Of a DNA stretch of 64,000 nt, positions 43,046 through 62,824 are shown one piece after another. Position 1 is the first letter of the stretch, and each line of letters starts with the position of its first letter. The position numbers and the translations under genes were made by a program. The stretch lies in contig NZ_CP099918.1 in NCBI RefSeq assembly GCF_030994125.1, positions 620,001 to 684,000 on the forward strand, read 5' to 3'. The notes under the pieces are model-generated. The model made no database searches. It saw only the letters and a program-made list of their open reading frames with translations, and had not been told where the DNA came from. The stretch is from Pseudoalteromonas xiamenensis (GTDB lineage Bacteria; Pseudomonadota; Gammaproteobacteria; Enterobacterales; Alteromonadaceae).

Positions 43046-43313
43046 TACAAAAAGTTTTGATTGTTTACTTACTTTAAGAATAATAAGTAAGTCTAAGAAT
43101 GGTTAATATATAAGGTAATAAAGGCTAAGAAGCTAAAAACATCATTTATCTTATTGTTTTTATTGAATTTAGTATATAATTATTGGATCGTAAAATTACC
43201 AAGTAAAGATCAGATCTTTACATACAAACAGATCGGAATATTACTAAGCCCTATTTATGCGAGACTAGATGTGCACAATTTACACACAGAATTACTCACA
43301 AAATAGGTCGTTG

Positions 43314-43331
43314 AGATCTAAATTTTACCAA
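43314..43331 (-). repeat. Iteron, inverted copy
   Basis: Minus strand TTGGTAAAATTTAGATCT; differs in few positions from the three direct copies at 43.5 kb. A weaker plus-strand relative (CAAGTAAAGATCAGATCT) is at 43200-43217. Confidence 0.65.
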
Positions 43332-43388
43332 CTAAAACAGAAGTTTAATCCACAGAATCATTGAAATGGGTGACACAGAGTAGATATA

Positions 43389-43419
43389 GATCGGATCTGC
43401 ACTAAGTATAGATCCGATC
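43389..43419. repeat. Perfect inverted repeat in the origin
   Basis: GATCGGATCT (43389-43398) and AGATCCGATC (43410-43419) around an 11-base spacer. Contains four GATC sites. It could be an initiator operator or a handcuffing/replication-control site; function unknown. Confidence 0.65.
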
Positions 43420-43440
43420 CGTACCAGCTCAACAAGAAGT

Positions 43441-43449
43441 TATCCACAG
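43441..43449 (+). promoter_or_regulatory. DnaA box
   Basis: TTATCCACA, the perfect consensus DnaA box, between the inverted repeat and the direct iterons. Confidence 0.7.
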
Positions 43450-43515
43450 GAGGGCTTGTAAACCCCGTCTTTTGGAGGATTCAAGACGGCTTTATACTTA
43501 AATACACACCTTTAG

Positions 43516-43632
43516 TTAGTAAAAATTAGATCTTAATTGCATTACTTAGTAAAATAATGATCTCGAAAACAGCTACACTTAGTAAAAATGTGATCTAAAA
43601 AATATGTTTAGGCCAGATCCGTTTTTTACTAA
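43516..43632. repeat. Iteron cluster upstream of the initiator gene
   Basis: Three direct 18-mers at 43516-43533, 43546-43563 and 43579-43596 (TTAGTAAAAATTAGATCT, TTAGTAAAATAATGATCT, TTAGTAAAAATGTGATCT), spaced 30 and 33 bases, so on roughly the same helix face, and one inverted copy at 43615-43632 (TTAGTAAAAAACGGATCT on the minus strand). The inverted copy closest to the gene is suited to autorepression of the initiator. Confidence 0.82.
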
Positions 43633-43701
43633 CTTAAGACATTAACTTTTGTCGCTGATTGTGGTGTTATTAGCTGTCAAATATTTTAAGGAAGTGGAAC
43701 A

Positions 43702-44907
43702 ATGAGCCGTAAGGTTAACATCTCGGTTGAAAATTTGCCTGATACACTTCGCGGGCAGATCCACGGGGTGGAAAGCGCTATCGATAATGAAAGTCTGGCG
43801 TTGTTCACTGATAACAAAGATGTCAGAGTGACATTAGAAAATTCGAAACAAAGTCTAAGAGCCTACTCGAATACCTTCAACCATTATGATCTTTGGGGTA
43901 GATTTGTCCGCTCAGGTCACAAAAAGTTGCCGCTTGAAGAAGCACCAAAGAAAACCATCGTCACAAGACGTATTTCAGAAAAGGTGGATGGAGTGCTTTA
44001 TGAAGGTGAAATTAAGATTACGCCTGCAGTGGTGAGTAGTAAGAAAGAAGGTGACGAAGTCGAATATTTGGTTTGGCCATCTGATAGAGAAGAAAAAGTA
44101 GAACGAGCACTCATACGTCTGGCTTCGAAAGGCAAAATTGTTAAAATTAATTTTAAGTCCGGTATTCAATATGCCGTGATATTTTCGATGAATGAATTGG
44201 CGCAGGAGCTTAAAGCGGTCGGTCAGTCAATGCCTTATCCGCAGATCAAAGAATCGTTGGAAGCTCTACAAGGTTCAAAGTTATCGTTTAAATATACAGC
44301 GGTTGATACTCGCAATCCGGAAATTGACGATTCATTCTATGAGTCAAATATGAACTTTTTATCTTCACTGCATTTCAGTGGGAAAAAAGGGCAGGGCGGA
44401 AATATCAAATGTGTTGCGTGTTTGAATGCTTTCGTCCACAACATGATTGATAATCTCGAGTACAAAGGTTACTACTTTAACAGTGCACAAGAATTAAAAC
44501 GTGGTCTTTCTCGTTGGATGATGCTTCGCTTGTATCATCTATGGCGTTATGCTGCACCAGGTAAAACATACCATTTCCGACTTATTTCGATTATGGAAAA
44601 ATATGGCACTATTGGTGATGACGATGAAATTACGGAAAACAAACTCAAAGCACTTCGTCGAGATATGACCACAACGATGAAAGATCTTATGGAAAAAGGT
44701 GCGATTTCATCATACGAGATCTCGAATATTAAAGACGATGATAGTGGAAAAATCATCGATTACGTCTATGAAATGCATCCTTCTGCGCAATTCTGCGAGG
44801 AGATTTTAACGCTTAACAAACATCATAAACGAATTGAAATACAAGGTGGAAAACGCAGCGTTGAAGTCATTGATGAAGACACGTTAGAAGAAATAGTAAA
44901 GGATTGA
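43702..44907 (+). CDS. Replication initiator protein of the chromid
   Basis: 401 aa. Not a DnaA or RctB-like protein as far as can be seen; the arrangement of tandem winged-helix-like regions (NHYDLWGRFVRSG near the N-terminus, LKRGLSRWMMLRLYHLWRY and MTTTMKDLMEKGAISSYEIS in the C-terminal half) fits iteron-binding plasmid-type initiators. Its gene starts 70 bases after an iteron cluster, has AAGGAAG upstream, and is followed by parAB on the other side of the origin. Function is inferred mainly from this context. It ends in a terminator shared with the convergent tus gene. Confidence 0.82.
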   Translation: MSRKVNISVENLPDTLRGQIHGVESAIDNESLALFTDNKDVRVTLENSKQSLRAYSNTFNHYDLWGRFVRSGHKKLPLEEAPKKTIVTRRISEKVDGVLYEGEIKITPAVVSSKKEGDEVEYLVWPSDREEKVERALIRLASKGKIVKINFKSGIQYAVIFSMNELAQELKAVGQSMPYPQIKESLEALQGSKLSFKYTAVDTRNPEIDDSFYESNMNFLSSLHFSGKKGQGGNIKCVACLNAFVHNMIDNLEYKGYYFNSAQELKRGLSRWMMLRLYHLWRYAAPGKTYHFRLISIMEKYGTIGDDDEITENKLKALRRDMTTTMKDLMEKGAISSYEISNIKDDDSGKIIDYVYEMHPSAQFCEEILTLNKHHKRIEIQGGKRSVEVIDEDTLEEIVKD

Positions 44908-44922
44908 TTCGCTTTTAAAGCT

Positions 44923-45831
44923 TCATTGCACTAAGGCCACAAATGTGGCCTTTTTAACATAATTAATCAGCTTTTTTTCCAAGTAAATTCTATCTACAAG
45001 AAAATCATATTCCTTCTTTCTAGGGTTTGGCTTTGAGGCAACAAAGTCGTTTAAATCCCCAAGTTTGATTTCTTTGCTCGGATTCAAAACAAAAAATGGT
45101 AGTGCTCCACTTACGTGGTATCGATGCGTGTTGGTAAAACGAACGTTCACTTCGGGGGTCACGCGTGTTGGACGTCGTATTCTTAATTTATCTGTAGATT
45201 TCAATGAAACAACTCTAGTTTTTTCGGATTCTACTAATCTTTGCCACGAGGCTTGGTCTATCATTCTTGGATTTGAATAATTCGAAGAACGTTCTAAAAG
45301 TGCTAACGCCTGTTCTTTGGTGAGTGTTTTAGTTGCATGCTTTTGCATCCACGTAAAACGAACTGACTTTGGATCGTCAGATTCGAAATGTATTTGCCGA
45401 TAAGCGGCGAGGGTGATTAACCCAGGAATAGCGGAATGCACAAGTTCGAATCTTGCGTCATTATTACTGATGGAAAGCACAATTTTTTTGAAATCCAGTT
45501 TGGCTTGATTAATTTGTCTAAGTCTGTTTTCAATCATCTTCTCAGGGTCGTTAATGCAAATCAATCCGGGGTGGCGTTTAATCACCTTACCACTTTGGTT
45601 TTCCTTTAAGAATAAATCTTGAAAAGCACTAGCGCACTTTGTTAGTGCTTGCTCACCAACATACGTAGAAACATCGATTCGGTCAGATAGCTCTTCTTCC
45701 ATTCCTTTTTCGGTAGTCGGCAATTCGAAATATTTACAGCTCAGTAATTCTACGGAGTCCATTTCTTCGCATAGTAAAGTTAAACATTCATTCAAATAAT
45801 TAAAGGCCGAGGAAATCTTAAACTTATCCAT
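44923..45831 (-). CDS. tus: Tus-type replication terminator protein
   Basis: 302 aa against 309 for E. coli Tus. Segments such as RFELVHSAIPGLITLAAYRQ, VRFTWMQKHATKTLTKEQ, SWQRLVESEK and LRIRRPTRVTPEVNVRF match the E. coli protein at equivalent places (for example RFEWVHRHLPGLITLNAYR as I remember it). Tus binds Ter sites as a monomer and stops the replicative helicase in one direction only. The gene converges on the initiator gene, 1.3-2.6 kb from the origin. A Ter-like 14-mer lies three bases before its start codon, over the ribosome-site region, so the protein probably controls its own synthesis, as E. coli Tus does at TerB. Confidence 0.9.
   Translation of the reverse strand: MDKFKISSAFNYLNECLTLLCEEMDSVELLSCKYFELPTTEKGMEEELSDRIDVSTYVGEQALTKCASAFQDLFLKENQSGKVIKRHPGLICINDPEKMIENRLRQINQAKLDFKKIVLSISNNDARFELVHSAIPGLITLAAYRQIHFESDDPKSVRFTWMQKHATKTLTKEQALALLERSSNYSNPRMIDQASWQRLVESEKTRVVSLKSTDKLRIRRPTRVTPEVNVRFTNTHRYHVSGALPFFVLNPSKEIKLGDLNDFVASKPNPRKKEYDFLVDRIYLEKKLINYVKKATFVALVQ
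44933..44955 (+). terminator. Terminator of the initiator gene
   Basis: AAGGCCAC, loop AAAT, GTGGCCTT followed by TTT (44933-44940 and 44945-44952), 26 bases after the initiator stop; it overlaps the 3' end of tus and may serve both. Confidence 0.82.
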
Positions 45832-45833
45832 AA

Positions 45834-45847
45834 GAACACATCATACT
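45834..45847 (-). other. Ter-like site 1, at the tus start
   Basis: Minus strand AGTATGATGTGTTC, an exact 14-base match to site 2 in the opposite orientation. E. coli Ter has AGTATG then TGT at the same spacing (AGTATGTTGTAACTAA). Three bases from the tus ATG. By the E. coli rule it would block forks coming from the right. Confidence 0.62.
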
Positions 45848-45942
45848 AATAATCAATTCTAGAATTATACCGCGACTCTTCTTTTGATCAATTTAGTTTT
45901 TAAGGTTTGTACGGTGTAGAGGTAATAAATAGACAAAAGCTC

Positions 45943-45956
45943 AGTATGATGTGTTC
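45943..45956 (+). other. Ter-like site 2
   Basis: AGTATGATGTGTTC, exact copy of site 1 facing the other way, 95 bases apart. By the E. coli rule it would block forks coming from the origin. Confidence 0.62.
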
Positions 45957-46009
45957 ATTCGTTTCTATCTATGTTCACTGTTGCAAAGGCAACACAAAGC
46001 TGTCTTTTA

Positions 46010-46023
46010 TGTAAGATGTGTTC
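46010..46023 (+). other. Ter-like site 3, degenerate
   Basis: TGTAAGATGTGTTC, 12 of 14 positions, same orientation as site 2, between tus and the DAHP synthase gene. Confidence 0.42.
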
Positions 46024-46078
46024 GCTTGGAGGCCTTATTTTCCTTGCTTGTCACCAATATATTCGTTAAGTTTCGATG

Positions 46079-46092
46079 TGTGTAAATACACA
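46079..46092 (+). promoter_or_regulatory. Short dyad upstream of DAHP synthase
   Basis: TGTGT-AAAT-ACACA, 20 bases before the start codon, over the leader. It might be an operator for an amino-acid-responsive repressor, but does not match a TyrR or TrpR site well. Confidence 0.25.
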
Positions 46093-46111
46093 TTAGGAAT
46101 GAGGAAAATTA

Positions 46112-47464
46112 ATGAAAAATTGGAGCCCTAACAGTTGGAGAGAATGTCCAATTGTTCAGCAGCCGGAGTACCCTGACAAGTCAGTACTGGCCTCTGTTGA
46201 AAAAGAACTAAACGCAGCCCCGCCGCTTGTTTTCGCGGAAGAAACTCGTAGCCTCTATAAAAGTTTGGCCGATGTTTGTGAAGGTAAGGCCTTTTTACTT
46301 CAGGGCGGTGACTGTGCTGAGTCGTTTGGTGATTTCAGCGCAACGAATATTCGCGATACATTTAAAACAATATTACAAATGGCTGTTGTTTTAACTTACG
46401 GCGGTAAATGTCCTGTCGTAAAAATCGCTCGAATGGCTGGACAGTACGCAAAACCGCGTTCGTCTGATTACGAAACAATTAACGGTATCGCATTACCGTC
46501 ATACCGCGGCGACATCATCAACAGCTTTGAATTTACTGAAGCTGCGCGTATCCCTGATCCGCAGCGTTTAATGAAGGCCTATCATCATAGCGCCGCAACT
46601 CTAAACTTGCTCAGAGCCTTTGCTCAAGGCGGTCTTGCTGATTTACATCAAGTTCATCGATGGAATATGAGTTTCGTTGCAGCTAACCCACTAAAAGATA
46701 AATTCCAACAAGTAGCGGATCGAATTCAAGAAGCGCTTGAGTTTATGGAAGTATGTGGCATTTCTAGCAGCAACGCTCCAAACCTAAGAGAAACGTCTTT
46801 GTATACTTCTCATGAAGCTTTACTTCTAGGCTACGAAGAAGCACTAACTCGACGTGACCACCTAAGCGGTGATTGGTATGATTGTTCGGCACACTTTGTT
46901 TGGATTGGCGAACGTACTCGTCAATTAGATCATGCTCACATCGAGTTTTTCCGTGGTATTAAAAACCCAATCGGTGTAAAAGTCGGTCCGGGTATGAAAC
47001 CAGATGAGCTTATTGAACTCATTGATGCGCTCAACCCTGAAAATATACCAGGTAGATTGACGCTTATTACCCGCATGGGTGCAGATCTACTTCCAGAGAA
47101 ACTGCCTGCACTTGTCCGTAAGGTACAACAAGAAGGCCGCAAAGTAATTTGGTCATCCGATCCTATGCACGGTAATACAGAGAAAGCCTCGACTGGATAT
47201 AAAACGCGTAATTTCGATAATATTCTGAAAGAAATTAGCCAGTTTTTCGCCGTTCATAAAGCGGAAGGCTCATACCCAGGTGGCGTACATTTAGAAATGA
47301 CGGGTCAACACGTGACCGAATGTGTTGGTGGTGCGTACGGTCTGTCAGACGAAGACCTAGCTCAGCGTTATAGAACACAATGTGATCCACGTCTTAATGC
47401 AGACCAAGTACTCGAACTAGGATTCCTAGTCGCTGATCTGCTTAAAGACGCCAGAGCAAGTTAA
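46112..47464 (+). CDS. DAHP synthase, class II
   Basis: Joins PEP and erythrose-4-phosphate in the first step of aromatic amino acid synthesis. 450 aa, the plant/actinobacterial class II length, unlike the about 350-aa E. coli AroF/G/H. Marks: [42 protein letters not shown] and [15 protein letters not shown] with metal and PEP ligands. AGGAAA precedes the ATG. It lies beside ppsR and ppsA, whose product PEP it uses. A bidirectional terminator separates it from the convergent ppsR. Confidence 0.95.
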
Positions 47465-47466
47465 AT

Positions 47467-47491
47467 AAAAAGGAGCACGAGCTCCTTTTTT
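47467..47491. terminator. Bidirectional terminator between DAHP synthase and ppsR
   Basis: GGAGC-ACGA-GCTCC (47472-47476 and 47481-47485) with A-runs on the left and T-runs on the right, serving both convergent genes. Confidence 0.88.
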
Positions 47492-48299
47492 AATATTTAC
47501 GTCTTTCCAAACCAGCCTCAGAGATTATCTTCGCCGAAATTTCCTCTACAGAAAACGACGTTGAATTTAGGAATGGAGTCTTGTTTTTCTTGAATAATCG
47601 TTCGACTTCCATTACTTCCATTCGACATTGACGGATAGACGCGTATCGAGAATTTGCCATTCTTTCTTCTCGAATTGCCGATAATCGTTCAGGACTTATC
47701 GTTAAGCCAAAAAGCTTATGCTTGTATGGCAATAAACATCTTGGGTAACTGCCAGATTCCAAATCATCTTCCGTCATTGGATAATTTGCTGCTTTAATAC
47801 CGTATTGGAGCGCAAGATATAAACTTGTGGGCGTTTTACCACTTCGACTTACACCCACTAAAATAATGTCAGCTTTTTCATAATCTTTAACATTTGCCCC
47901 GTCATCATTCGCGAGAGCATAGTTCACCGCATCTATCCGGTAGTCGTAGCTCTTTTCGTGCATACTATGAGTTCGGTGAACCTTTGGCACTGGCTCGAGT
48001 TTAAGTTCATGTTTGATTCGTTCACTAAATACACTTAGAAAGTCATAACACACAGCATCCGAAGAACTGATAATTTCACTAAGTTTATGATTCACAAACG
48101 TGAAGAAAACTAATGGGCGTTCTCCCGACTTAGCGGCAGTTTGGTCAATGATTCGTTTTATCTCTAATGCCTTTTCAGGCGTTTCTACAAACGGGATCGT
48201 GCGGTGGTTAAATTCAGTTGGAAACAAAGAAAGTGTTGCGTGTCCAAACACTTCTGACGTGATGGCTGTACCATCGGAAATATAAAAAGCAGTTCTCAT
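47490..48299 (-). CDS. ppsR: PEP synthase regulatory protein (kinase/pyrophosphorylase)
   Basis: 269 aa of the DUF299/PSRP family, which phosphorylates PEP synthase with ADP and removes the group with phosphate. The P-loop-like DIILVGVSRSGKTPTSLYLA and the N-terminal YISDGTAITSEVFGHATLS are diagnostic. It is divergent from ppsA, its substrate, with about 140 bases between the starts. Confidence 0.95.
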   Translation of the reverse strand: MRTAFYISDGTAITSEVFGHATLSLFPTEFNHRTIPFVETPEKALEIKRIIDQTAAKSGERPLVFFTFVNHKLSEIISSSDAVCYDFLSVFSERIKHELKLEPVPKVHRTHSMHEKSYDYRIDAVNYALANDDGANVKDYEKADIILVGVSRSGKTPTSLYLALQYGIKAANYPMTEDDLESGSYPRCLLPYKHKLFGLTISPERLSAIREERMANSRYASIRQCRMEVMEVERLFKKNKTPFLNSTSFSVEEISAKIISEAGLERRKY

Positions 48300-48440
48300 T
48301 TGATTTTTTTCACGTTACTTTGGCCTCGAATTTGAGCCAATAGGTTTACGACAGATGTCCCACCAGTGTAGAATGCTCACGACTTTTTTAAAAGAGTCAC
48401 CTTTCTCTCACATTTAAAATTTGTTTTTGGAGACAGTTCC

Positions 48441-50813
48441 GTGCAAGACTACGTTCTCTGGTACCAAGAATTGGGCATGAATGATGTCCCAAGAGTGGGT
48501 GGTAAAAACGCATCACTCGGGGAAATGATATCTAACCTGGCAAACGCCGGTGTGCAAGTTCCGGGTGGATTTGCAACGACAGCCGAAGCTTATAATGAGT
48601 TTCTAGAGCAGTCGGGGATAAATGAAAAAATCCACACAACGTTAGATACCCTCGATGTAGATGACGTAAATGAATTAGCCAAGGTTGGCGCCCAAATAAG
48701 ACAATGGATTATAGATACCCCCTTCCAACCTGAACTAGACCAAGCTATCCGTGAAGCTTATCAAACTCTACACGGAAATCCTGATACAGATGTCTCCTTC
48801 GCAGTACGTTCCTCTGCAACCGCAGAAGATATGCCTGATGCTTCTTTCGCTGGCCAACAAGAAACTTTTCTAAACGTTCGTGGTATTGATGCGGTCATGG
48901 TCGCTATCAAACACGTATTTGCCTCACTATTCAACGACCGTGCTATTTCTTATCGCGTACACCAAGGTTACGACCACCGTGGCGTTGCTTTGTCAGCAGG
49001 CGTACAGCGTATGGTCCGTTCAGACAAAGCGTCATCAGGTGTAATGTTCAGTATTGATACGGAATCTGGTTTCGAAGATGTTGTTTTCGTTACGTCATCT
49101 TTTGGTCTCGGTGAAATGGTTGTGCAGGGCGCTGTTAACCCAGACGAATTTTACGTCCATAAGCCGACCCTTGCTAGAGGTAACCCTGCAGTCGTTCGCC
49201 GTAACATCGGCTCGAAAGCAGTTCAAATGATTTACTCTAACGACCTAGAACATGGTAAACAAGTTTCTATCGTTAACGTGGAGCCTGCTAAATCGAACCA
49301 ATTCTCTATAACAGATGAAGAAGTTCAAGAGCTTGCAAAACAAGCTGTGATCATCGAAAAACACTACGGTCGTCCAATGGACATTGAGTGGGCAAAAGAC
49401 GGTAACGACGGCAAACTTTATATCGTTCAAGCCCGTCCCGAGACGGTACGTTCAAATGAAGATGCAAACGTCATGGAACGTTTCCAATTGAAAGCACATT
49501 CAACGGTCGTTGCTGAAGGACGTGCAATTGGTCACAAAATTGGTTCTGGCATAGTACGTGTCTTGAACTCAATAGACGAAATGGACAAAGTTCAACAAGG
49601 TGACGTGCTCGTAACGGACATGACAGACCCAGACTGGGAGCCTATCATGAAACGTGCAGCCGCAATCGTAACGAATCGCGGTGGACGTACCTGTCACGCG
49701 GCAATCATTGCGCGTGAATTGGGTATTCCAGCAGTAGTAGGCTGTGGTAACGCAACTGACTTGATTAAAAATAATCAGCTAGTCACTGTTTCGTGTGCAG
49801 AGGGTGACACTGGCTATATTTATGATGGTAAACTTGAGTATGATGTGTTGACATCTCGCGTTGACCAAATGCCAGACTTACCGATGAAAATTATGATGAA
49901 CGTCGGTAATCCGGATAGAGCGTTCGATTTCGCTCGTCTACCACATGCGGGGATCGGTCTTGCTCGTCTTGAGTTCATCATTAACCGTATGATAGGTGTT
50001 CATCCAAAAGCGTTAATTAACTTTGACGCACAAGATACGGATCTACAAGATACCATTCGCGACATGATGGCAGGTTATTCCTCTCCAGTTGAGTTTTATG
50101 TCAGCAAACTGGTAGAAGGTATTGCGACGTTAGGTTGTGCATTTGCGCCTGAACGCGTAATCGTGCGTATGTCAGACTTCAAGTCGAATGAATACGCTAA
50201 CTTAGTTGGCGGACATCAGTACGAACCTGAAGAAGAAAACCCAATGATTGGTTTCCGTGGCGCATCTCGCTACATTTCTGAAGACTTCCGCGAATGTTTT
50301 GCACTTGAGTGTGAAGCGATTAAACGTGTTCGCAACGAAATGGGCTTAACGAACGTAGAAATCATGATCCCATTCGTACGTACACTTGAAGAAGCCGCAC
50401 GTGTTATCGAGCTACTTGAAGAGCACGGTTTAAAGCGTGGAGAGAACGGACTTAAAGTCATCATGATGTGCGAACTGCCTTCAAATGCTTTATTAGCTGA
50501 AGAGTTCCTCGAATATTTTGACGGTTTCTCGATTGGTTCGAATGACCTGACGCAATTAACACTTGGTCTTGACCGCGATTCAGGATTGATTGCTCATTTG
50601 TTTGACGAGCGTAATCCTGCAATTAAGAAACTTCTTTCAATGGCGATTCAAACGGCTAAAGCGAAAGGCAAGTACGTAGGTATTTGTGGACAAGGCCCTT
50701 CTGACCATGAAGATTTTGCGGCTTGGTTAGTGGACGAAGGTATCGACTCAGTTTCATTAAACCCTGATACAGTTCTAGAAACTTGGTTGTACTTGGCTGA
50801 AAAGTTTAAGTAA
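48441..50813 (+). CDS. ppsA: Phosphoenolpyruvate synthase
   Basis: Makes PEP from pyruvate and ATP; feeds gluconeogenesis and aromatic synthesis. 790 aa (E. coli 792). ATP-grasp domain ([35 protein letters not shown]), swivelling domain with catalytic His in [20 protein letters not shown], and PEP-binding TIM barrel ending in [17 protein letters not shown]. With the glyoxylate shunt it supports growth on two- and three-carbon compounds. A Ter-like 14-mer lies inside the gene at 49.84 kb. Ends in a strong terminator. Confidence 0.97.
49837..49850 (+). other. Ter-like site 4, inside ppsA
   Basis: AGTATGATGTGTTG, 13 of 14 positions, same orientation as site 2. It is inside a coding region, so chance plus codon choice cannot be excluded, though a 13-base match is unlikely by chance in 64 kb. 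Confidence 0.5.
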
Positions 50814-50825
50814 AAACGATATGTG

Positions 50826-50852
50826 ATGGCCAACGTTGTTGGCCATTTTTAT
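50826..50852 (+). terminator. Terminator of ppsA
   Basis: ATGGCCAA, loop CGTTG, TTGGCCAT followed by TTTT (50826-50833 and 50839-50846). It also overlaps the 3' end of the convergent small gene. Confidence 0.85.
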
Positions 50853-51055
50853 TTAAACCGTCTGTCTAGTTTAATACTTGCACTTTTAAATGCTTTTTGT
50901 GCTTTTCTTAAATATTGCTTGGCGTTTTCATTAATCATTGAAAAACAAACAAGTGCGGCTAATAAAAATAAAATTGAAGGCCCTGGTACCACAATAAACA
51001 CTACCGCAAGAACGATAAACAAAGTCCCCAGTAAGTAATATTTCGTCTTTTTCAT
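50849..51055 (-). CDS. Small membrane protein of the PGPGW type
   Basis: 68 aa, one or two membrane spans with VFIVVPGPSILFLLAALVCF, resembling the PGPGW transmembrane family whose motif is here PGPS. GGGG lies seven bases before ATG 51055; a TTG four codons upstream is the alternative start. Basic C-terminal tail. Function unknown. Confidence 0.65.
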   Translation of the reverse strand: MKKTKYYLLGTLFIVLAVVFIVVPGPSILFLLAALVCFSMINENAKQYLRKAQKAFKSASIKLDRRFK

Positions 51056-51248
51056 AATCAACCCCAATGCAACAGCGATATTAATAGAAAGTTAGCCTCA
51101 ATGGCATGCTAATAAACAAATTTCTTAGTACTACTATAATTGAACATGCAAAAAAAGTTGTTTCGTGTTGTAACAAAGAATGTAAATCCCAATTTTCTTA
51201 ATAACACAACATGGTACAATAGATAAAAAGTCGCAGAACTTCAGCATC

Positions 51249-54299: not shown

Positions 54300-54314
54300 A
54301 ATACAGTAAATCAC

Positions 54315-54342: not shown

Positions 54343-54387
54343 ACATAATAGAAAAGTCGCTTTTTTATCCGAATGAAAATGGGGACG

Positions 54388-55602
54388 TTATAGCTTTCGC
54401 TTCAAACCGGAAATCGCGCGCTCTTTCACATTGGTCTGAATATAGATCTGGTCGGTAGTGGCGATTTTTGCATGCCCAAGATCTTCAGACAAATGCTTCA
54501 ACGGTCTGATTTGTGCGTCATGAGTTGCGCCTGTGTGCCTCAACCAATGTGCTGTAGCACTCGCTAACTGTTCAGCTTCATCCACAAAACCATCTTTTCT
54601 TAATGAAGCCTCAGCCAAATCAAAACTTTCTTGTACTAAACGTCGAAGTTGCCTTACTGTCATGCCACCTTGACCCCGAATTTTATGGATCACAGGATAG
54701 GCTTCATCGACTCTGGGCAAAGGGGTCAAACCACGATAAAGCCGATATCGTCTTAAATATTCAACGATATCATCGCTTAACGTAACATCTCGCAACTTGT
54801 TTCCTTTACCCATCACTCTAAAAAACCAAAATCCGTCTGCATCTTGCCAAAAATGGCTCATAACAGGGGACCAATGCGGTCTTTCAGAAAGCTCAGATAT
54901 TCGCAGATACAATCCTTTTAAGCAGGCCAATACAAACAAATTTCGCTCTAAATTAGGCTGGTCCGCACAAGCGTCTTTTGTCACATTGAAAACATATTCC
55001 CACTGGAGATTACTCAGAGTATCCGGCAAGTTAATTTGAGATTGTACAACGAGGTAAGGTGAGTTCTTTTTTACTACAGGGACAAAGTTAGAAAAACATT
55101 TTTCTTCAAGGAGCGCAAATTTAAAAAAAACATTCAACGCAGTAAACATCGCGGCCAACGTTTGTTGACTCACTTGAACCTGCTTATTTATAAAAGGTCG
55201 CCATAAACTATTTACTTGGCGTCTACCTTCACTTTCTTTATACCGCCATTGAACACTTTCCGAACACCAATCTTTTCGAGGTTCTACGACAAAATCAGTG
55301 TAAGCTTCAATGTCTTCTCTACGCAAAGTAAAAACAGACTGTCCATTGATTAACCAAGCCCATAAACAAAATCGCTCAATTTCATTACGAAACCGATTAA
55401 ATGTCCCTTCGGACTTTCGACCATAAACATACAAAAATTGATAAACAAAATGTAGCTCTTGCTCAAGCGTTGGAATAGTGCTTTGAAAGTTGGTAATAAA
55501 GGAAGCCAGTTCTGGATACTCTGTGTTTAATGTGCCATCTTCGATGTGCGCAATTTGATATCTGAGTTGTTTAAACACATCGACTAAAGGCACAAATGTC
55601 AT
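54388..55602 (-). CDS. Tyrosine recombinase / site-specific integrase
   Basis: 404 aa. Catalytic residues are all visible: Arg in LYLRISELSERPH, Lys in VMGKGNKLRDVTLS, His-x-x-Arg in AHWLRHTGATHD, His in DLGHAKIATT and Tyr in DQIYIQTNVK. The N-terminal core-binding domain is longer than in XerC/D (about 300 aa), so this is not a housekeeping Xer protein. No phage or transposon genes surround it. A 12-base sequence just upstream recurs near the dif candidate at 62.85 kb; those may be its target sites. Confidence 0.9.
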   Translation of the reverse strand: MTFVPLVDVFKQLRYQIAHIEDGTLNTEYPELASFITNFQSTIPTLEQELHFVYQFLYVYGRKSEGTFNRFRNEIERFCLWAWLINGQSVFTLRREDIEAYTDFVVEPRKDWCSESVQWRYKESEGRRQVNSLWRPFINKQVQVSQQTLAAMFTALNVFFKFALLEEKCFSNFVPVVKKNSPYLVVQSQINLPDTLSNLQWEYVFNVTKDACADQPNLERNLFVLACLKGLYLRISELSERPHWSPVMSHFWQDADGFWFFRVMGKGNKLRDVTLSDDIVEYLRRYRLYRGLTPLPRVDEAYPVIHKIRGQGGMTVRQLRRLVQESFDLAEASLRKDGFVDEAEQLASATAHWLRHTGATHDAQIRPLKHLSEDLGHAKIATTDQIYIQTNVKERAISGLKRKL

Positions 55603-55640
55603 TGGAATTGATCCCTTTTTTAGGTCTAATTCTATTTCTT

Positions 55641-55664
55641 ATGTCCGATACTGTCCAGCCTAGC
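55641..55664 (-). repeat. Candidate recombinase site next to the integrase gene
   Basis: Minus strand CTAGGC, five bases, then AGTATCGGACAT. The same CTAGGC and AGTATCGGACAT occur without the five extra bases at 62854-62871. It lies 40 bases before the integrase start. Confidence 0.4.
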
Positions 55665-55713
55665 TGCATTAATTTTAAAAGTTAGGCTCGCTATTTCATG
55701 CGAGCCAAATCAT

Positions 55714-56787
55714 TTAGAGTAGAGCCTGTTTCTTAATAAACTCAACTAAGTCTTTAGAAATAGCTTGATGTTCAGTTTGAGTAGGGTGCCAAACGCAGCC
55801 TTCAAAAGTAGAACTGAACACGTGAGAATATAGCTGGGACACCTCATTATCCTTCAATAAGGTCATTGCTTTTTCAGTCGCAGGGATGATCAAGTCATAC
55901 GGGTAAGCAGGCCGCGGCATGTAAACTATCGGAACGGCAGGATACCGACTTCGAATTTGTAACGTGTACGCGACCATCTCACTAACCCATGCATTTTCAA
56001 CGTCTGAAATGGTTTGCCAAGGTTCGCCATTTTGTGGATCTGTACTGAAGTCATTTGTTCCGACCTCAATGATGATTAAGTTTGGAAATCTATCTTCAAA
56101 TTCTGTTTTGTCGCTAAATAAAGCCGAGAGTCTGTCTGTGTATGTACGGATTGTGTGATGGGGTTGGTTACCCGACCAATTGCGGATCAGTCCAAGTCCA
56201 GAATAGGAAACTTGAGTAAAACTAGCCCCAAGGGATTTTGCACTCAAGTAAGGAAAAGCAACTCGGGCATTACTCGTATTCACAATTTCTTGCCAATCAC
56301 AATCTCGCTTACTTGACTCACTACCAAACCCGGCACTAATTGAATCACCAATAAACAAAATATGCGGCTGGCTTTTAACCACACCTTCTGTTTGACCATC
56401 CATCTCAAATTTGAAGATGCGAGAGTTATGTTCATAGTTTTCCCAACGCTTCACCAGTTCAATGATTACATCCGCTGGATTTTCACTTTCAAAAAGCACG
56501 AAATTTTCCGGTTCGCCGGAATAGCTTGTCAGAATTTTTTTATACAATTGCCCGTTGATTAAAACATCAAATTGATCACCAAAACCGGCCAGTTTGACGC
56601 TGAGTTTTTTGCCTATCAAGCGAGTTTTAACCTGAGTACCTGGCCAATTAAAAGTAACAGAACCGTCTGTGTAGTGTTTCGATATTCTACCTTCATACGA
56701 TATTGTATGATGTGTTCCTTCTATAGTTTTTGATTGCGCATAACAGGATAGGGCAAATGCCGCTATCATCAATGTTGGCTTGTACAT
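55714..56787 (-). CDS. Secreted SGNH esterase, carbohydrate esterase family 2-like
   Basis: 357 aa with a signal peptide (LMIAAFALSCYAQSK). An N-terminal jelly-roll (about residues 25-130, GSVTFNWPGTQVKTRLIG) is followed by the SGNH hydrolase domain with the catalytic Ser in ILFIGDSISAGFG, Gly and Asn in IIEVGTNDFST, and Asp/His in CVWHPTQTEHQ. The two-domain order is that of CE2 acetyl-xylan/glucomannan esterases. Substrate inferred only from family. The start of the gene overlaps a Ter-like 14-mer at 56.7 kb. Confidence 0.86.
   Translation of the reverse strand: MYKPTLMIAAFALSCYAQSKTIEGTHHTISYEGRISKHYTDGSVTFNWPGTQVKTRLIGKKLSVKLAGFGDQFDVLINGQLYKKILTSYSGEPENFVLFESENPADVIIELVKRWENYEHNSRIFKFEMDGQTEGVVKSQPHILFIGDSISAGFGSESSKRDCDWQEIVNTSNARVAFPYLSAKSLGASFTQVSYSGLGLIRNWSGNQPHHTIRTYTDRLSALFSDKTEFEDRFPNLIIIEVGTNDFSTDPQNGEPWQTISDVENAWVSEMVAYTLQIRSRYPAVPIVYMPRPAYPYDLIIPATEKAMTLLKDNEVSQLYSHVFSSTFEGCVWHPTQTEHQAISKDLVEFIKKQALL
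56704..56717 (+). other. Ter-like site 5, inside the esterase gene
   Basis: TGTATGATGTGTTC, 13 of 14 positions, same orientation as sites 2-4. Confidence 0.5.
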
Positions 56788-57030
56788 GTTGCATTCCTTT
56801 TGTGGTTTGTATCCACAAAAACTTTACCGTATTTAGTAATCGTTTATGCTATGCAAAGATTGATTTTTGATTGAAAAATATTCATTTTTTTAGGAACACC
56901 AAACTGATTATTAACGTTTAACGTGTTCCCTTTGCCAACAGTCAGCTATTTGCAAAACAAAAATATGATTGGTCTGATACTGGTTTAACTGTTGTAGTAG
57001 CCCGCAAGAAAACGATGGTTATTTCACCAG

Positions 57031-57924
57031 CTATGCTTTGTTATGTAACAGTTTGCTACTCACCTTAATTAGACTTACTACAATTAGGCCCGCACAAAAA
57101 CCAAGCACTGCGTTGAAACTTAAAGAGAGCAATGTTTTAAAAGCGTTATTGCTAATATTAAGTGAATCGACGTAATGGCCTAAAAAAGGCAAACCATGAG
57201 AAAGAATTTCTCCACCAATGAGTAAACAGGCAACCATACCGACAAAAGACAATAGCGACATCAGTTGCGTCGCTAAACTGAGCAACCCTTTACCAAATAA
57301 ATATTTGAACCCCGTCGCTCGCTTTTTGATTTCATTACGAATAATGTGTAACGCAATATCATCGAGTTTAACGAATAGGCCAACTAAGCCATACACACCA
57401 ACCGTCATGATTACGGCGATAATGGAAAGCACGATAAATTGCATCATCATCGTTTGGTCCTGTATAGAACCCAGAGCAATGACAATGATTTCCGCACTTA
57501 GAACGGTATCCATTTTTATTGCATCTTTTATTTTCTCTTTTTCAAATTCAAGCAACGAGACATTTTCATCTTGAACTGCTGCCAACAAAGCTTCATGGTG
57601 AGCCGACTTTTTAAATAGGTGTAGGAGTTTTTCACTTCCTTCATAACACAAAAATAGTCCGCCGAGCATTAGCAAAGGTTGGATTAAGAATGGTAAAAAA
57701 AAGCTTAGCGCTAAAGCGATTGGGACGACTATCGCCTTATTTAGAAAGCTGCCTTTTGCTACAGCCCAAACAACCGGAAGTTCACGTTCAGGCTTAATAT
57801 CACCAGATAAACTTTGTGCGTTCACCGCTAAATCATCACCTAATACAGGTGCTGTTTTACTCGCCGCAACTTTTGTTAGAAAAACGATGTCATCCAATAG
57901 TGCGAAAAATGATCCACCAGCCAT
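57031..57924 (-). CDS. DUF808/YedI-type inner membrane protein
   Basis: 297 aa (E. coli YedI 305). The family opening AGGSFFALLDDIVFLTKVAA is clear, followed by LLMLGGLFLCYEGSEKLLHL and six or so hydrophobic segments. Function unknown in all species I recall. Single gene, divergent from the deaminase. Confidence 0.9.
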   Translation of the reverse strand: MAGGSFFALLDDIVFLTKVAASKTAPVLGDDLAVNAQSLSGDIKPERELPVVWAVAKGSFLNKAIVVPIALALSFFLPFLIQPLLMLGGLFLCYEGSEKLLHLFKKSAHHEALLAAVQDENVSLLEFEKEKIKDAIKMDTVLSAEIIVIALGSIQDQTMMMQFIVLSIIAVIMTVGVYGLVGLFVKLDDIALHIIRNEIKKRATGFKYLFGKGLLSLATQLMSLLSFVGMVACLLIGGEILSHGLPFLGHYVDSLNISNNAFKTLLSLSFNAVLGFCAGLIVVSLIKVSSKLLHNKA

Positions 57925-58081
57925 ACGTTATAAACTTAATATCTTTATTTAGAATAAATTCACTTTATCTCAAGCGCTTAGAGGATGCTATTAAAGAATT
58001 ACAAAATCAGACACATAAGTACTAGACAAATGAAACACAATTTTGTTTCTATATTCTTGTATTACTGCCCAAGGGAAAACA

Positions 58082-58561
58082 ATGAACTACGAAAACTATG
58101 TCAAGTTAGCAATCGAAAGTGCAATTAAATCAGCAGTTAATGGAAACCTACCTTACGGCTGCATCTTGCTATCTCCTGAAGGGCAGGTAATAGAAACCGG
58201 TGAAAATTCAATTGTTACTAAACCCGACTTAATAGGCCATGCTGAGATTAACTTAATACAGGCGCTCAAAAGTGAATACTCTTCAGAGTATTTAAAACAA
58301 TGTACGATAGTGACAAGTGACGAACCATGCTCTATGTGCTCATCCGCTATTTATTGGGCCGGTTTCAAAACGCTCGTTTTCGGTTTAAGTAAACAACGAT
58401 TCTATCGGGAATTTGGCAGAGATAATCCTGATTGGGATTTCGAAATATCAGCAAAAGATATTCTATCTAAAGGTGGACGAGAAACAGAGGTCATCGGACC
58501 ATTCTTGGAAGACAAAGTACTTGAAATGCACAAAGCCTATAAGGCAGGAAAATTAAAATGA
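58082..58561 (+). CDS. Nucleoside/nucleobase deaminase
   Basis: 159 aa cytidine-deaminase-fold enzyme. Zinc and catalytic residues are seen in LIGHAEINLIQAL (HAE) and SDEPCSMCSSAIYWAG (PCxxC). The C-terminal part resembles guanine deaminase/TadA-like proteins; the exact base cannot be told. The ATG at 58082 follows AAGGG; a longer frame upstream has no ribosome site. Confidence 0.87.
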   Translation: MNYENYVKLAIESAIKSAVNGNLPYGCILLSPEGQVIETGENSIVTKPDLIGHAEINLIQALKSEYSSEYLKQCTIVTSDEPCSMCSSAIYWAGFKTLVFGLSKQRFYREFGRDNPDWDFEISAKDILSKGGRETEVIGPFLEDKVLEMHKAYKAGKLK

Positions 58562-58621
58562 GCTAGTGTTAAAGTAGAATTGTCTCGATTCGAAAGGGTT
58601 TAGTTTCAGGATGAACCTAGT

Positions 58622-59597
58622 ATGTGGTTAAGACCGTTAATTAACCTATTTTTTTCTGTTTTTCATGTCATTGCGTGTCTTACACGATAGCAGTGGTTGG
58701 AAAGACTAAGAATGACAGTTTTTATGAACAGTCTTATAAAGGCTGTTTAGAATTTGCTAAAACTCACACAGATGTAAGTTGTCTATATGACGGCGCTGAC
58801 GATTATCAAGACGTTAGAACACAAGTGCTTGTGGTTAACGATTTAATCCAAAAAAACATCGATGCATTAATGGTGTCGACGACCGACTCGAATTTCTTAA
58901 TCAAAGGCGCACTAAAACTCGCGAAAAAAAGAACATTCCAGTACTTACATTTGACTCGGATCTTCTACAACAAGATAGCGATTACCGAATTGCCTACGTC
59001 GGTACGAATAACTTTGATTTTGGTGTCGCGCTCGGAAATGCCGCTAAAAGTCACAAGAAAAAAACGCCTCAACCGATTTGTATTCAAACAGGACATAGAA
59101 CAACACCCAACCTAAATAAACGGGTAGAAGGAGTACGCTTTGCATTATCAGGCCAAAGCAAAAATCGACTCGATGGTACATCGGGTTGGATAGAATACGA
59201 GCGATGTCCGCTTTACACGATGGGTAAAAGAGAAGACGCCTTAAAACAACTCGTAACGATTATTGATGATGTCGAACCGCCAATTTTTATAGCGGTTGCA
59301 GGATTTGCCCAATTTAATCCTCAATATAGTAATGAAATTCAGCGATTTAAAAACAAACTGTCCAATGACGAAATAACGATAATTTCAGCAGATACCGAAA
59401 TGAGCCAGTTAGAAATACTCAAACTCGGCCTGTCGACAATTAATATCGGACAAAATCCATTTGAAATGGGGAGAAAAGGCGCAGAGATTCTATTTGAATA
59501 TCTAGTAGAAGGTAAGCGACCTATAACTGACAAACTTTACTTAAACTTTCACTATTGTGACCGTTCAAATGCTGATACCTGTACAATCAACCATTAA
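58622..59597 (+). CDS. Periplasmic sugar-binding-like protein, frameshifted
   Basis: Reading 58675-58930 and then the neighbouring frame to 59597 gives one type-I periplasmic-binding-protein fold of about 305-325 aa: SYTIAVVGKTKNDSFYEQSY, then NIPVLTFDSDLLQQDSDYRI, ICIQTGHRTTPNLNKRVEGV and INIGQNPFEMGRKGAEILFE. One A missing from a seven-A run (58924-58930) explains the break. A signal-peptide-like start (ATG 58622, WLRPLINLFF) is in a third frame, joined if one T is added to the T7 run at 58649-58655. Ligand probably a sugar, by fold; no ABC transporter is adjacent. It precedes an AraC gene. Confidence 0.68.
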
Positions 59598-59701
59598 AGC
59601 CATCAAGTCGCAACTCTGTGCTAAGTCAGCAATTTTGTTCTATTCAACCTTTGTGCTCATTTCTATACTTAATCATCTAGTGAACAAACGAGCAAAGACC
59701 C

Positions 59702-60526
59702 ATGCCTGAACGTTTTCAATATCTTCGAAGTAGTCATCATGAAGGCCTCAGTACATTCAGTGCTCGCATAACCTCGTTTAGTTATGACAAACATGCACAT
59801 GAAGAGTACAGCATCGGCGTTACGCGCAAAGGACGACAAGACTTTTTTAGCAGCGGAGTTTTTCACAAAAGTAACGCGGGCAATGTCATATTCTTTAACC
59901 CAGAACAAGTCCATGATGGCTGCGCTGGTGAACGCACAGAATTGGAATATGACATGATCTATATTCCAGAAACTACGCTCATCAATTTAATGGGCACGCT
60001 TGGTCGTTTTTCTAAAGAACAAGCTCGATTGAAAACGTCCTTGTTCCATGACATTGCGCTCCGCAATCAAGTATTAAAGCTTGGGCAGCAAATGCACCAA
60101 CCATCAAATTCTCAACTTGAGGAAGAAGCTGCTCTTCTCAATATCGCTCAGTCTGTTGTTCGATTAGGCGGAGGTACACTTATTGACGGGCGAAATAACG
60201 TGCGTAAAGACAAGCTACTTTTGCAGGCAAAAGATTTTATTCAGGATAATTTAAATACCAAATTGACTGTCGACGACATATCAAATGCCGCTTCATTGTC
60301 TAAGTATCACTTTATTCGATTGTTCAATGAACAGTTTGGAATTACTCCACACCAATATGTTTTAAATTGCAGGCTTATTAGGGCAAAACACGCTATTGAG
60401 CGTGGTGAAGGGGCATTGGATGTTGCGGTTCAATTTGGGTTTTCAGACATCAACCATTTAAACCGAAAATTTAAGCGTGTTTTCGGCATTACACCACATC
60501 AATATCAACGACAACTGAGCTACTAG
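59702..60526 (+). CDS. AraC-family transcriptional regulator
   Basis: 274 aa with a cupin-like ligand domain (HEEYSIGVTRKGRQDFF, VIFFNPEQVHDGCAGE) and a C-terminal double helix-turn-helix (SLSKYHFIRLFNEQFGITPH, FGFSDINHLNRKFKRVFGIT). It belongs to the group that sits beside LysE exporters, as here: the LysE gene starts 31 bases downstream. It probably activates that exporter. Confidence 0.9.
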   Translation: MPERFQYLRSSHHEGLSTFSARITSFSYDKHAHEEYSIGVTRKGRQDFFSSGVFHKSNAGNVIFFNPEQVHDGCAGERTELEYDMIYIPETTLINLMGTLGRFSKEQARLKTSLFHDIALRNQVLKLGQQMHQPSNSQLEEEAALLNIAQSVVRLGGGTLIDGRNNVRKDKLLLQAKDFIQDNLNTKLTVDDISNAASLSKYHFIRLFNEQFGITPHQYVLNCRLIRAKHAIERGEGALDVAVQFGFSDINHLNRKFKRVFGITPHQYQRQLSY

Positions 60527-60557
60527 TTTCAAACCATCATCCAATCTAGAGCAGATC

Positions 60558-61142
60558 ATGATAGACATCATTTTTTATGCATTTGGCGTTATGTATACGC
60601 CTGGGCCTGTGAATGCTATTGGCCTAAATAATGGTATTCAAAAACAACCTAGCCTAATTCGTTTTTTTGCAGGCGTAGGCGCGGCGATGTTTATACTCTT
60701 TTTCGCATTTGCGCTAGTAGGAGAGACGTTAATGAACGAAACCATCATTAAGCTCGCCTCAGTCCTTGGAGCGATATATGTTCTTTGGCTCTCGTATAAA
60801 ATATTCAACGCTAACATTGCGTTAAAGCAAGAATGTGAGAATAGGGCGCTTACATTTCGAGATGGTTTGTTAATGCAACTACTTAATCCAAAGGCGATGG
60901 TCGTGGTTTTACCTGTTGCGACGATTCAATTTCCAGCAGCGGGAATTGGCGGTATCGAGATTATTTTGTGGTGTATCGGCTTGGCCATATTCGCATTTGG
61001 TGCTCCTTTTTCTTATTTTCTTTTTGGACGCTTATTAGGTAATTCATTAAAAAGCGATGTAGCACTACACATAATAAACAAACTTATGGCGTTCTTTTTA
61101 TTTATCGTTGCTATCAGCATGGCAACAAACCCTTTTATTTAA
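60558..61142 (+). CDS. LysE/RhtB-family exporter
   Basis: 194 aa, about six spans, opening VMYTPGPVNAIGLNNGIQKQ and central LLMQLLNPKAMVVVLPVATI. Directly downstream of the AraC regulator and followed at 25 bases by the DUF2000 gene; the three form a likely operon. Only distantly like the LysE protein at 32.8 kb. Confidence 0.88.
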   Translation: MIDIIFYAFGVMYTPGPVNAIGLNNGIQKQPSLIRFFAGVGAAMFILFFAFALVGETLMNETIIKLASVLGAIYVLWLSYKIFNANIALKQECENRALTFRDGLLMQLLNPKAMVVVLPVATIQFPAAGIGGIEIILWCIGLAIFAFGAPFSYFLFGRLLGNSLKSDVALHIINKLMAFFLFIVAISMATNPFI

Positions 61143-61166
61143 ACTTAATAGAATACAGAGGTTAAC

Positions 61167-61577
61167 ATGCAATTCGAGACCAAATTCACTATTGTTGTCG
61201 CCGATGATTTACCTATGTGGCAAAAGCTAAACGTAGTCAGCTTTTTAGCCGGCGGCGTGACTAAAAGCGAACACGTTAATACGGGTAAACACTATCTCGA
61301 CAGCGAAGGTAACACCTATCTGCCACTGTGTACTCAACCTATTATCGTTCTAAAAGCACCTAGAAATAAACTGCCTACCTTCATTCAGCGTGCAAAAAAA
61401 GACCGGACTGATGTTGCGATTTTTATCGATGATATGTTTTACACTGGTTTTGATGAAGCGAATCGAAAAACCACCGAAAAATACACAAGTGAAAACCTTC
61501 CCCTTGTTGGCATCGCTATGTGCACTGACAAAAAAATAGTCGATAAAATTTTTAAAGGCGCCAAGTTACATGATTAA
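61167..61577 (+). CDS. DUF2000-family protein
   Basis: 136 aa, FETKFTIVVADDLPMWQKLN, VSFLAGGVTKSEH and TQPIIVLKAPRNKL; an alpha/beta fold related to peptidyl-tRNA hydrolase II. No function established. AGAGG precedes the ATG. Last gene of the AraC-LysE-DUF2000 unit; DUF2000 genes often accompany AraC/LysE pairs. Confidence 0.85.
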   Translation: MQFETKFTIVVADDLPMWQKLNVVSFLAGGVTKSEHVNTGKHYLDSEGNTYLPLCTQPIIVLKAPRNKLPTFIQRAKKDRTDVAIFIDDMFYTGFDEANRKTTEKYTSENLPLVGIAMCTDKKIVDKIFKGAKLHD

Positions 61578-61654
61578 CTGTTCACTAGATATAATAGAAG
61601 CGTTATCGAGCTAAACATTAAAAACGTCACTCATTAGTTCTGATTTCAGCTGGC

Positions 61655-62269
61655 ATGTATAGTATTATTAATCACACACAAAATTTACTTACAGCGTTAG
61701 ATCACAATATGAGTAATCGAGATCTAAATAGTGCATTTGCACTGATCAAGTTTTTTAGTAAAAAGGAACACTACTTGAGCTTTTTAAATGGAAACACTTT
61801 GTTTCGTACTCCTCATTATTACAGGACATGTGAAGATGTAGGTAGGGGCGATAGAAACGAATCTTGTCTACTATTTTGGGGGAAAAAATTTGGAGGCCAG
61901 AAACCAAAGTTTGAACTGATTGGGAATTCCAATTTAGACTTTGAAACATATGAAAGTGTCCTCATTTATCCAACTACGGAGCAAAACGATTCATGGATGC
62001 AGTCTTGGGCAATTATGGGACCTCATAATGGCTTCGAACATTCACTAGAGCAACTGCAAGAAGAATTTGGTTTTTACTTTGTCGTTTTACCTGCGAAGAA
62101 CATAGCAAAATACGCCAAACTGGTTGAAAAACATAGCGGTTCAAAGATTACATACGGAGCCATAAGATACTCTGAAAATCCTAAAGAGCGCTCATTGACT
62201 GTTAAAGATACCAAATTTAGTTACCAAAAAGAGTTTAGGTTTTATACGGGTCAATGTGCTAAAGATTAA
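61655..62269 (+). CDS. Hypothetical protein, possibly cut short by an in-frame stop
   Basis: 204 aa, not named; the pattern HYLSFLNGNTLFRTPHYYRT, GRGDRNESC and YQKEFRFYTG resembles a loose family of accessory-region proteins with lineage-specific spread. After the TAA the same frame stays open for about 47 codons (DMYFTIPELNTMLLDAKSLK, to 62413), and these read like a continuation. A longer protein with a nonsense change, or two genes, are both possible. Nothing is known of its role; AT-rich relative to neighbours. Confidence 0.5.
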   Translation: MYSIINHTQNLLTALDHNMSNRDLNSAFALIKFFSKKEHYLSFLNGNTLFRTPHYYRTCEDVGRGDRNESCLLFWGKKFGGQKPKFELIGNSNLDFETYESVLIYPTTEQNDSWMQSWAIMGPHNGFEHSLEQLQEEFGFYFVVLPAKNIAKYAKLVEKHSGSKITYGAIRYSENPKERSLTVKDTKFSYQKEFRFYTGQCAKD

Positions 62270-62413
62270 CTAACCGATATGTATTTCACAATTCCTGAAT
62301 TAAACACGATGCTTTTAGATGCTAAGTCTCTCAAACTAACTTCACCCAATGGAGATATAAGATACTGTTCAGTGGGTAATAGAGGCGTATTAACTATCAA
62401 TAGTACTCTTTAA

Positions 62414-62796
62414 ACACTGTTAAAAATGATTTAAACCCGATTAAAAATGGCGAAAAGTGATCTAATTCTAAACGTCTTTCGATCAATAATGATCTCGAAT
62501 TGAAAGGGTTTGATAGGTTTTTGTCTAAAATCATCTGTCTTTTAACATTTGGAAGGGAAAGCACTAAATTTTAACGACACCTTGATTTTCTAGGCCTGCG
62601 AAGGTTCGACCATTCGATTTTTCAAATATCCCCAAATCTAAAAATGAACGACCCCTTACATATAAAACAGTATAGCGACAGAAATTCTTTTAATTGCTAA
62701 ACATCACCAGAACAAAAAATCTCAAAGTGCCGCGAAATCTCAACTTAAATGGCGATGATCAAATCAAAGGCGTGAGCAGAAAACCCACAACACATT
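62414..62796. other. Gene-free region before the dif candidate
   Basis: About 380 bases with no gene. It contains several GATC sites (62456-62500) but no iteron of the origin type. Probably untranslated border of the terminus region. Confidence 0.4.
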
Positions 62797-62824
62797 ATTT
62801 AACATAACGTAATTTATCGGCATT
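62797..62824 (-). other. Candidate dif site of the chromid (dif2)
   Basis: On the minus strand an 11-base XerC arm AATGCCGATAA, six central bases ATTACG and a perfect XerD arm TTATGTTAAAT, giving the standard 28-base 11-6-11 layout. Vibrio cholerae dif2 also starts AATGC and ends GTTATGTTAAAT. Intergenic. This is where XerC/XerD would resolve dimers of the replicon. Confidence 0.72.

Follow-up and report, generated by a model that had tools for sequence, protein, structure and literature searches.

In the Tus-Ter system of Escherichia coli, a replication fork that meets the AGTATG end of a Ter site is stopped. Here we analysed a stretch of 64,000 nucleotides (the window) of the chromid of Pseudoalteromonas xiamenensis, in which the replication origin ori2, repA, tus, five Ter-like sites and a candidate dif2 all lie inside 20 kb. 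The genome, G000 in our sample, comprises 4,598,500 bp in two contigs; the chromid C2 has 918,912 bp and the window is C2:620001-684000. We consider it likely that these sites form a Tus-Ter fork trap around the tus promoter, 2.3 kb from ori2, which blocks one of two forks, and that the same Tus traps forks around dif1 of the main chromosome.

A comparable arrangement has been described for plasmid R1 (Krabbe et al. 1997, as described in PMC10331603), in which the sites terRL and terRR, located next to the origin, halt one fork almost immediately and the other after a full circle, and thereby enforce one-way replication. The Pseudoalteromonas chromid also has Ter sites beside its origin, but R1 is a plasmid, whereas the present replicon has a size of 0.9 Mb, a different Ter sequence and a tus of its own next to the origin. 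Although the chromid would work like R1, it was not classed as an R1 replicon, because its RepA-like open reading frame (ORF) gave no match in a Pfam search. In Edwardsiella and Dickeya, type I traps (Toft et al., as described in PMC10331603) are similar in that the Ter guarding tus is innermost and a single Ter can bound a replichore; however, they are located opposite oriC on the sole chromosome, not beside ori2.

Within the genus, unidirectional chromids with tus and dif2 beside ori2 are already published (PMC7858055, PMC6549158, PMC13342612). Our sample shares with the chromids of Xie et al. 2021 (PMC7858055) the ori2-repA-tus cluster, dif2 near ori2, and the presence of both unidirectional and bidirectional clades. 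Single-slope marker frequency was reported for P. tunicata and seven other strains (PMC7858055), and for P. translucida TAC125 (PMC13342612). How a bacterial chromosome replicates one way was left open by Xie et al. (PMC7858055) and by reviewers (PMC10331603), a gap that Ter sites would fill. When the E. coli ter consensus was searched for on the P. tunicata chromid, no site was found (PMC7858055); an analogy to R1 and the presence of a ter in the tus promoter have been put forward, but with no sequence (PMC8347550, PMC10331603), and a 2023 review draws the chromid ter site with a question mark (PMC10331603). An initial annotation of the window offered the trap as a mechanism for unidirectional chromids. 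Its layout is supported by the present data, but it was not the first, as an origin-proximal trap had already been printed as a conjecture (PMC7858055, PMC8347550, PMC10331603). The accessible portions of PMC8707476, PMC8496264, PMC3025954 and PMC12809603 give no Ter sequence for the genus, and a term search of PMC12053903 found none; in a literature search with subscription papers mostly outside its scope, we found no report of a Ter sequence, chromid sites or a main-chromosome trap in Pseudoalteromonas. New here are the Ter sites and a comparative test, and at the level of sequence this comparison strongly supports a real, conserved Tus-Ter trap.

Ter core across the genus Pseudoalteromonas

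Tus is encoded in 107 of the 108 Pseudoalteromonas genomes sampled. The core GTANGATGTGTTC was found in all 107 genomes of the genus searched for it, with 599 sites compared to 9 for the reversed-pattern control. In 117 genomes of the same order outside the genus, it gave 14 matches in 12 genomes versus 9 for the reversed control, which is about chance. Since matches there are near chance although 29 of these 117 genomes encode a Tus homologue, the Pseudoalteromonas Ter looks specific to the genus.

Alignment of the DNA upstream of tus from 19 loci showed a mean column identity of 45%, apart from two opposed blocks that share the core GATGTGTTC, one directly ahead of the tus start codon and the other ~100 bp farther. 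Among 226 distinct contexts, the core is preferentially preceded by A or T (5' side) and followed by TT or CT (3' side). The Pseudoalteromonas Ter sequence (AGTATGATGTGTTC) and that of E. coli (AGTATGTTGTAACT) have the 5' part in common, but not the 3' part; against the E. coli Ter AGTATGTTGTAACTA, the shared elements are AGTATG and TGT, whereas the 3' part again differs. The latter difference may be why no site was detected in P. tunicata with the E. coli consensus. Besides these Ter elements, the two systems are alike in the Tus family, the order (-)-dif-(+), and a tus-sense Ter in the tus leader. The Tus of the window matches E. coli Tus (1ecr) with a phmmer E-value of 2.5e-31, and E. coli F140 and H144 are conserved in the alignment; its closest named relative is the Tus of P. 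luteoviolacea ATCC 29581, with 66% identity.

An unusual array is seen in G007, where 15 Ter-like sites in one orientation, mostly ~182 bp apart, occupy the region ~1.5-4.1 kb from the tus start on the ori side. In every copy the base before TATG is changed from G, and the array might be a decayed or modified Ter array.

Site orientation at tus loci

Orientation was compared at 97 tus loci, which correspond to 74 distinct Tus proteins. A site is termed (+) in the orientation that would block a rightward fork from ori2, and (-) in the opposite one. Beyond 80 bp upstream of tus, all 198 exact sites are (+) and none is (-); counted once per distinct Tus, the numbers are 155 and 0. At least one exact (+) site is found upstream of tus in 91/97 loci and for 70/74 distinct Tus. 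As the available DNA upstream of tus is shorter than 2 kb in 31 of the 97 loci, outer Ter sites are undercounted. The (-) site is located at the 5' end of tus in 53 of the 74 distinct loci and on the 3' side of tus in eight, so that the trap order is kept despite the move. Among assemblies with no more than four contigs, 26 have tus-adjacent sites and listed site places; none of their exact chromid sites is farther than 15 kb from tus. The opposed sites form a pocket that a fork could enter but not leave, both on the chromid and on the main chromosome. The number of exact (+) sites does not correlate with chromid size (Spearman 0.28, P = 0.29, 16 chromids, hand-copied counts). The trap layout and polarity proposed in the initial annotation agree with these results.

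The sites could be operators only, through which tus and the neighbouring divergent gene are regulated by Tus or another protein. Sites 1 and 2 of the window do flank the tus promoter, and E. coli TerB, in the same place, is described as autoregulatory (PMC10331603). However, sites are also found kilobases away, always in one orientation, and pairs of sites surround dif1 on the main chromosome, as well as dif2 far from tus in a clade with bidirectional-looking skew. Because Ter pairs enclose dif1 and dif2, we set this explanation aside as very improbable.

A probable fork trap beside ori2

The iteron origin, Tus, Ter-like 14-mers and dif candidate named in the initial annotation were all recovered at their places by repeat search, Pfam and motif search (Table 1). 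Of the five Ter-like copies that it listed, sites 1 and 2 are exact and sites 3 and 5 have the full core, whereas the core of site 4 is incomplete, and sites 4 and 5 are less certain, as both lie within ORFs. Site 4 is the weakest member and may be a chance occurrence. Outer Ter sites at 8-14 kb are also present in G031, G041, G045, G073, G099 and G107. Within the window, the 14-mer at up to three mismatches is not in excess (8 found versus 6.22 expected; 29 of 100 shuffles reach 8), and the proof was therefore taken from relatives.

Table 1. Features of the window (window coordinates) and Ter-dif arrangements on other replicons
Feature	Replicon	Position	Strand	Evidence and remarks
Probable parB2	Window	40756..41718	-	ORF beside parA2; no Pfam match; named by position
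ParA-like ATPase (parA2)	Window	41731..43011	-	Pfam AAA_31, E 1.3e-26
ori2	Window	43180..43650		Iteron-like repeats of TTAGTAAAAATnnGATCT type, direct and inverted; adjoins repA
RepA-like initiator, 401 aa	Window	43702..44907	+	ORF; position orthologous to "replication protein A" of named chromids
Tus, 302 aa	Window	44923..45831	-	PF05472, E = 1.4e-77
Ter site 1	Window	45834..45847	-	Exact 14-mer; tus sense; 2 bases ahead of tus start codon
Ter site 2	Window	45943..45956	+	Exact 14-mer; conserved block in 19-locus alignment
Ter site 3	Window	46010..46023	+	2 mismatches to 14-mer; core GTAAGATGTGTTC complete
Ter-like site 4, doubtful	Window	49837..49850	+	1 mismatch, the last core base; inside phosphoenolpyruvate synthase-like ORF
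Ter site 5, outer	Window	56704..56717	+	1 mismatch, core complete; inside an ORF
dif2 candidate	Window	62797..62824	-	AATGCCGATAA ATTACG TTATGTTAAAT
Ter pair	G000 main chromosome	C1:219937-219950, C1:278046-278059	-, +	dif1-like site C1:264995 between
Ter-dif2-Ter	G044	825 kb, dif2 863, 926 kb	-, +	
Ter-dif2-Ter	G100	737 kb, dif2 819, 850 kb	-, +	(+) site with one mismatch
Ter-dif2-Ter	G097	20 kb, dif2 56, 119 kb	-, +	Draft, one contig

The position of ori2 beside repA matches the published minimal replicons of the genus (PMC7858055). The distance from the end of ori2 to site 2 is 2.3 kb, which makes site 2 an origin-proximal site of the R1 type, one that would halt right-moving forks from ori2. 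The dif2 candidate was missed in the window by a search with E. coli dif at up to three mismatches and was picked up by an XerD-arm pattern; its XerD arm is perfect, whereas the XerC arm has diverged. The dif2 21-mer is found on the chromid of 8 of the 30 other genomes searched.

Sites, motif, orientation pattern, genus-wide conservation, skew and the different placement in one clade were computed directly from the genomes. From them we predict Tus binding, arrest of forks, two forks at ori2, autoregulation of tus, and service of Tus to both replicons, as follows. Two forks would start at ori2. The right-moving fork would run through site 1 from its permissive side and be halted at site 2, with site 3, and perhaps sites 4 and 5, as back-up. 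The left-moving fork would copy the other ~917 kb, crossing dif2 and then sites 5 to 2 from the permissive side. The forks would meet in the 95-bp pocket between sites 1 and 2, and site 1, which would halt left-moving forks, would bar re-entry into the origin. As site 1 overlaps the tus leader, it is also a probable tus operator, by which Tus would repress its own gene. Such a block would have to last until the other fork has replicated about 0.7-1.3 Mb, with which the presence of several (+) sites is consistent.

Alternatively, initiation at ori2 might be intrinsically one-way, with a single left-moving fork, site 1 preventing origin re-entry, and the (+) sites serving as a safeguard against stray forks. 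Such an origin would account for the (-) site being kept in most loci (61 of the 70 with (+) sites), and the choice between one and two forks was left open by Xie et al. (PMC7858055). However, (+) sites would be useful only against a right-moving fork, and they are kept in 70/70 loci outside the exceptional clade described below, a higher rate than that of the (-) site, and often in several copies, which an origin with one fork would hardly need. Moreover, the clade with bidirectional skew appears to use the same repA-ori2-tus neighbourhood. We therefore favour two forks, one of them blocked at once, and regard one-way initiation as unlikely; the Ter motif makes the question testable.

GC skew of the chromids

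GC skew of C2 was computed in 87 bins of 10 kb, with 54,912 bp left out. It is negative in 82 of the 87 bins, the one-sign skew expected of a unidirectional chromid copied by one left-moving fork, and agrees with the direction predicted in the initial annotation. Skew samples are likewise negative in 20/20 cases for G103, G055, G041, G031, G107 and G073 combined, in 4/5 for G099, 2/3 for G086 and 3/5 for G045.

Several observations weigh against the two-fork trap at ori2. First, cumulative skew, which the annotation had suggested as a check, does not peak at site 2 in G000; its maximum is found 9.7 kb to the right of ori2, counted from the end of ori2, in the interval from site 4 to site 5, either because large rightward genes confound the skew or because forks leak to the outer sites. 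Second, the arc between Ter and dif2 gives mixed results in chromids with a dif2 at a distance of 98-154 kb: skew there is negative in 2/2 samples of G031 and of G073, 8/13 bins of NC201, 1/2 samples of G099, 0/1 of G086 and 0/2 of G045. Third, no (-) site at up to two mismatches is present near tus in G007, G041, G052, G061 and G107, and G031 has a (-) site with two mismatches among its (+) sites. Finally, G061 has two (+) sites beside tus, yet its skew looks bidirectional: to the right of tus it is positive at 165, 224, 258, 338 and 494 kb but negative at 414, 564, 714, 823 and 1152 kb, and dif2 is located at 410 kb.

Part of this pattern would be explained by a leaky block, in which two forks start, some right-moving ones pass Ter and end nearer dif2, and Tus-Ter only biases the mode. 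Near-zero or positive Ter-dif2 skew in G061, G045, G086 and parts of NC201 points in this direction, as do the several back-up (+) sites at some loci. By contrast, skew is negative right up to the Ter region in the samples of G031 and G073, and at such a scale skew is confounded by the orientation of genes and by recent insertions close to dif2. We rate a leaky block as unlikely. In G061 the sites may be inactive or leaky, or the arm may have been rebuilt recently; perhaps G061 represents a second, independent change of replication mode. Its main chromosome has no exact or one-mismatch Ter. A simple inversion was considered as the source of the G061 skew, but an inversion carrying dif2 is not supported, as the orientation of dif2 relative to tus is the usual one.

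A clade with Ter sites opposite ori2

The four Tus loci without origin-proximal sites form one clade in a midpoint-rooted tree, with a support of 100/100. No Ter site with up to two mismatches was found near tus in this clade within 10 kb on each side (~2.8 kb on the ori side in G100). Its complete chromids, those of G044 and G100, measure 1.60 and 1.62 Mb, which fits the published bidirectional Pseudoalteromonas chromids of 1.60-1.67 Mb (PMC7858055). In both, going right from tus, five samples of positive skew are followed by five of negative skew, a bidirectional pattern. The turn falls between 687 and 911 kb in G100 (dif2 at 776) and between 696 and 923 kb in G044 (dif2 at 832), and the interval contains dif2 and its Ter pair, opposite ori2. 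A similar pair surrounds dif2 in G097 (Table 1), and near dif2 of G063 only the (-) side was seen. G044 has an extra exact site at 304 kb, on the arm from ori2 to the trap, in the permissive orientation for a fork from ori2. On the main chromosomes of G044 and G100 there is no exact or one-mismatch Ter site, and the dif1 trap is therefore absent or diverged in this clade.

We propose that in this clade, which lacks the origin-proximal sites and has a Ter pair around dif2 opposite ori2, replication is bidirectional. The comparison of a mostly unidirectional genus with a bidirectional-looking clade that has its sites at other places suggests that the replication mode depends on where the fork barriers are located. 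With somewhat less assurance than for the trap itself, we favour the view that a single Tus, encoded on the chromid, operates two traps, one on each replicon, and that Ter placement, not a change of initiator, set one-way versus two-way replication of the chromid.

Ter pair around dif1 on the main chromosome

The main chromosome was checked in 27 of the 32 assemblies with four or fewer contigs, five with sites or dif1 unlisted being omitted. In 21 of the 27, dif1 lies between (-) and (+) Ter sites, consisting of one (-) plus one or two (+) exact-core sites 23 to 144 kb apart. Three of the remaining assemblies have sites on one side only, in the right order in the two with dif1 located, and three have no exact site; a wrong Ter order around dif1 was found in 0/27. 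The distance from dnaA to dif1 could be estimated in 18 of the 27, in most cases with rounded genome sizes, and is 0.47-0.52 of the circle in 17, including three without an exact site and one with a one-sided site. In the other, G055, it is 0.35 of the circle, and the Ter pair nonetheless encloses dif1. In G000, the (-) site is inside a 432-codon open frame and the (+) site outside any frame of at least 80 codons.

A sequence check of E. coli K-12 gave the order TerA(-), dif, TerC(+), with TerB(+) directly before tus in tus sense; the Ter-dif order on the Pseudoalteromonas main chromosome is the same. The E. coli polarity is supported here without being assumed, because a reversed polarity would bar forks from oriC from the dif1 region. 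Different from E. coli, tus is located on another replicon than the dif1 trap, and the main chromosomes of the 21 paired assemblies have just two or three exact-core sites.

The initial annotation described a single trap beside ori2. The sites of that trap were found, whereas those of the probable second one, around dif1, lay beyond the window. We propose that the same Tus would bind the (-)/(+) pair around dif1 and trap forks there, and the chromid-encoded Tus thus probably serves both replicons. If so, both replicons would be linked by a chromid-borne Tus that serves the main chromosome. The sole genome of the genus without a Tus match, G003 (one contig, 3.6 Mb), still has a Ter pair around dif1; its chromid may be absent from the assembly.

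Other features

A tyrosine recombinase gene (PF00589; window 54388-55602, minus strand) sits between ori2 and dif2. The chromids of P. shioyasakiensis A316 and Pseudoalteromonas sp. THAF3 have annotated recombinases in the same place and the same gene order, and the gene is possibly linked to the dif2 region.

More distant, second Tus homologues are encoded on contig C3 of G005, G007, G013 and G037, and on contigs of G020, G030, G038, G063, G070, G074, G088 and G104; at least some of them are on a small, plasmid-looking third contig. A tblastn search of PLSDB found a Tus homologue in 2545 plasmid records, 2146 of which are typed as conjugative. In addition, an island at C2:520001-550000 of G000 has a G+C content of 0.52-0.54, compared to 0.39-0.47 in the other 10-kb bins covered.

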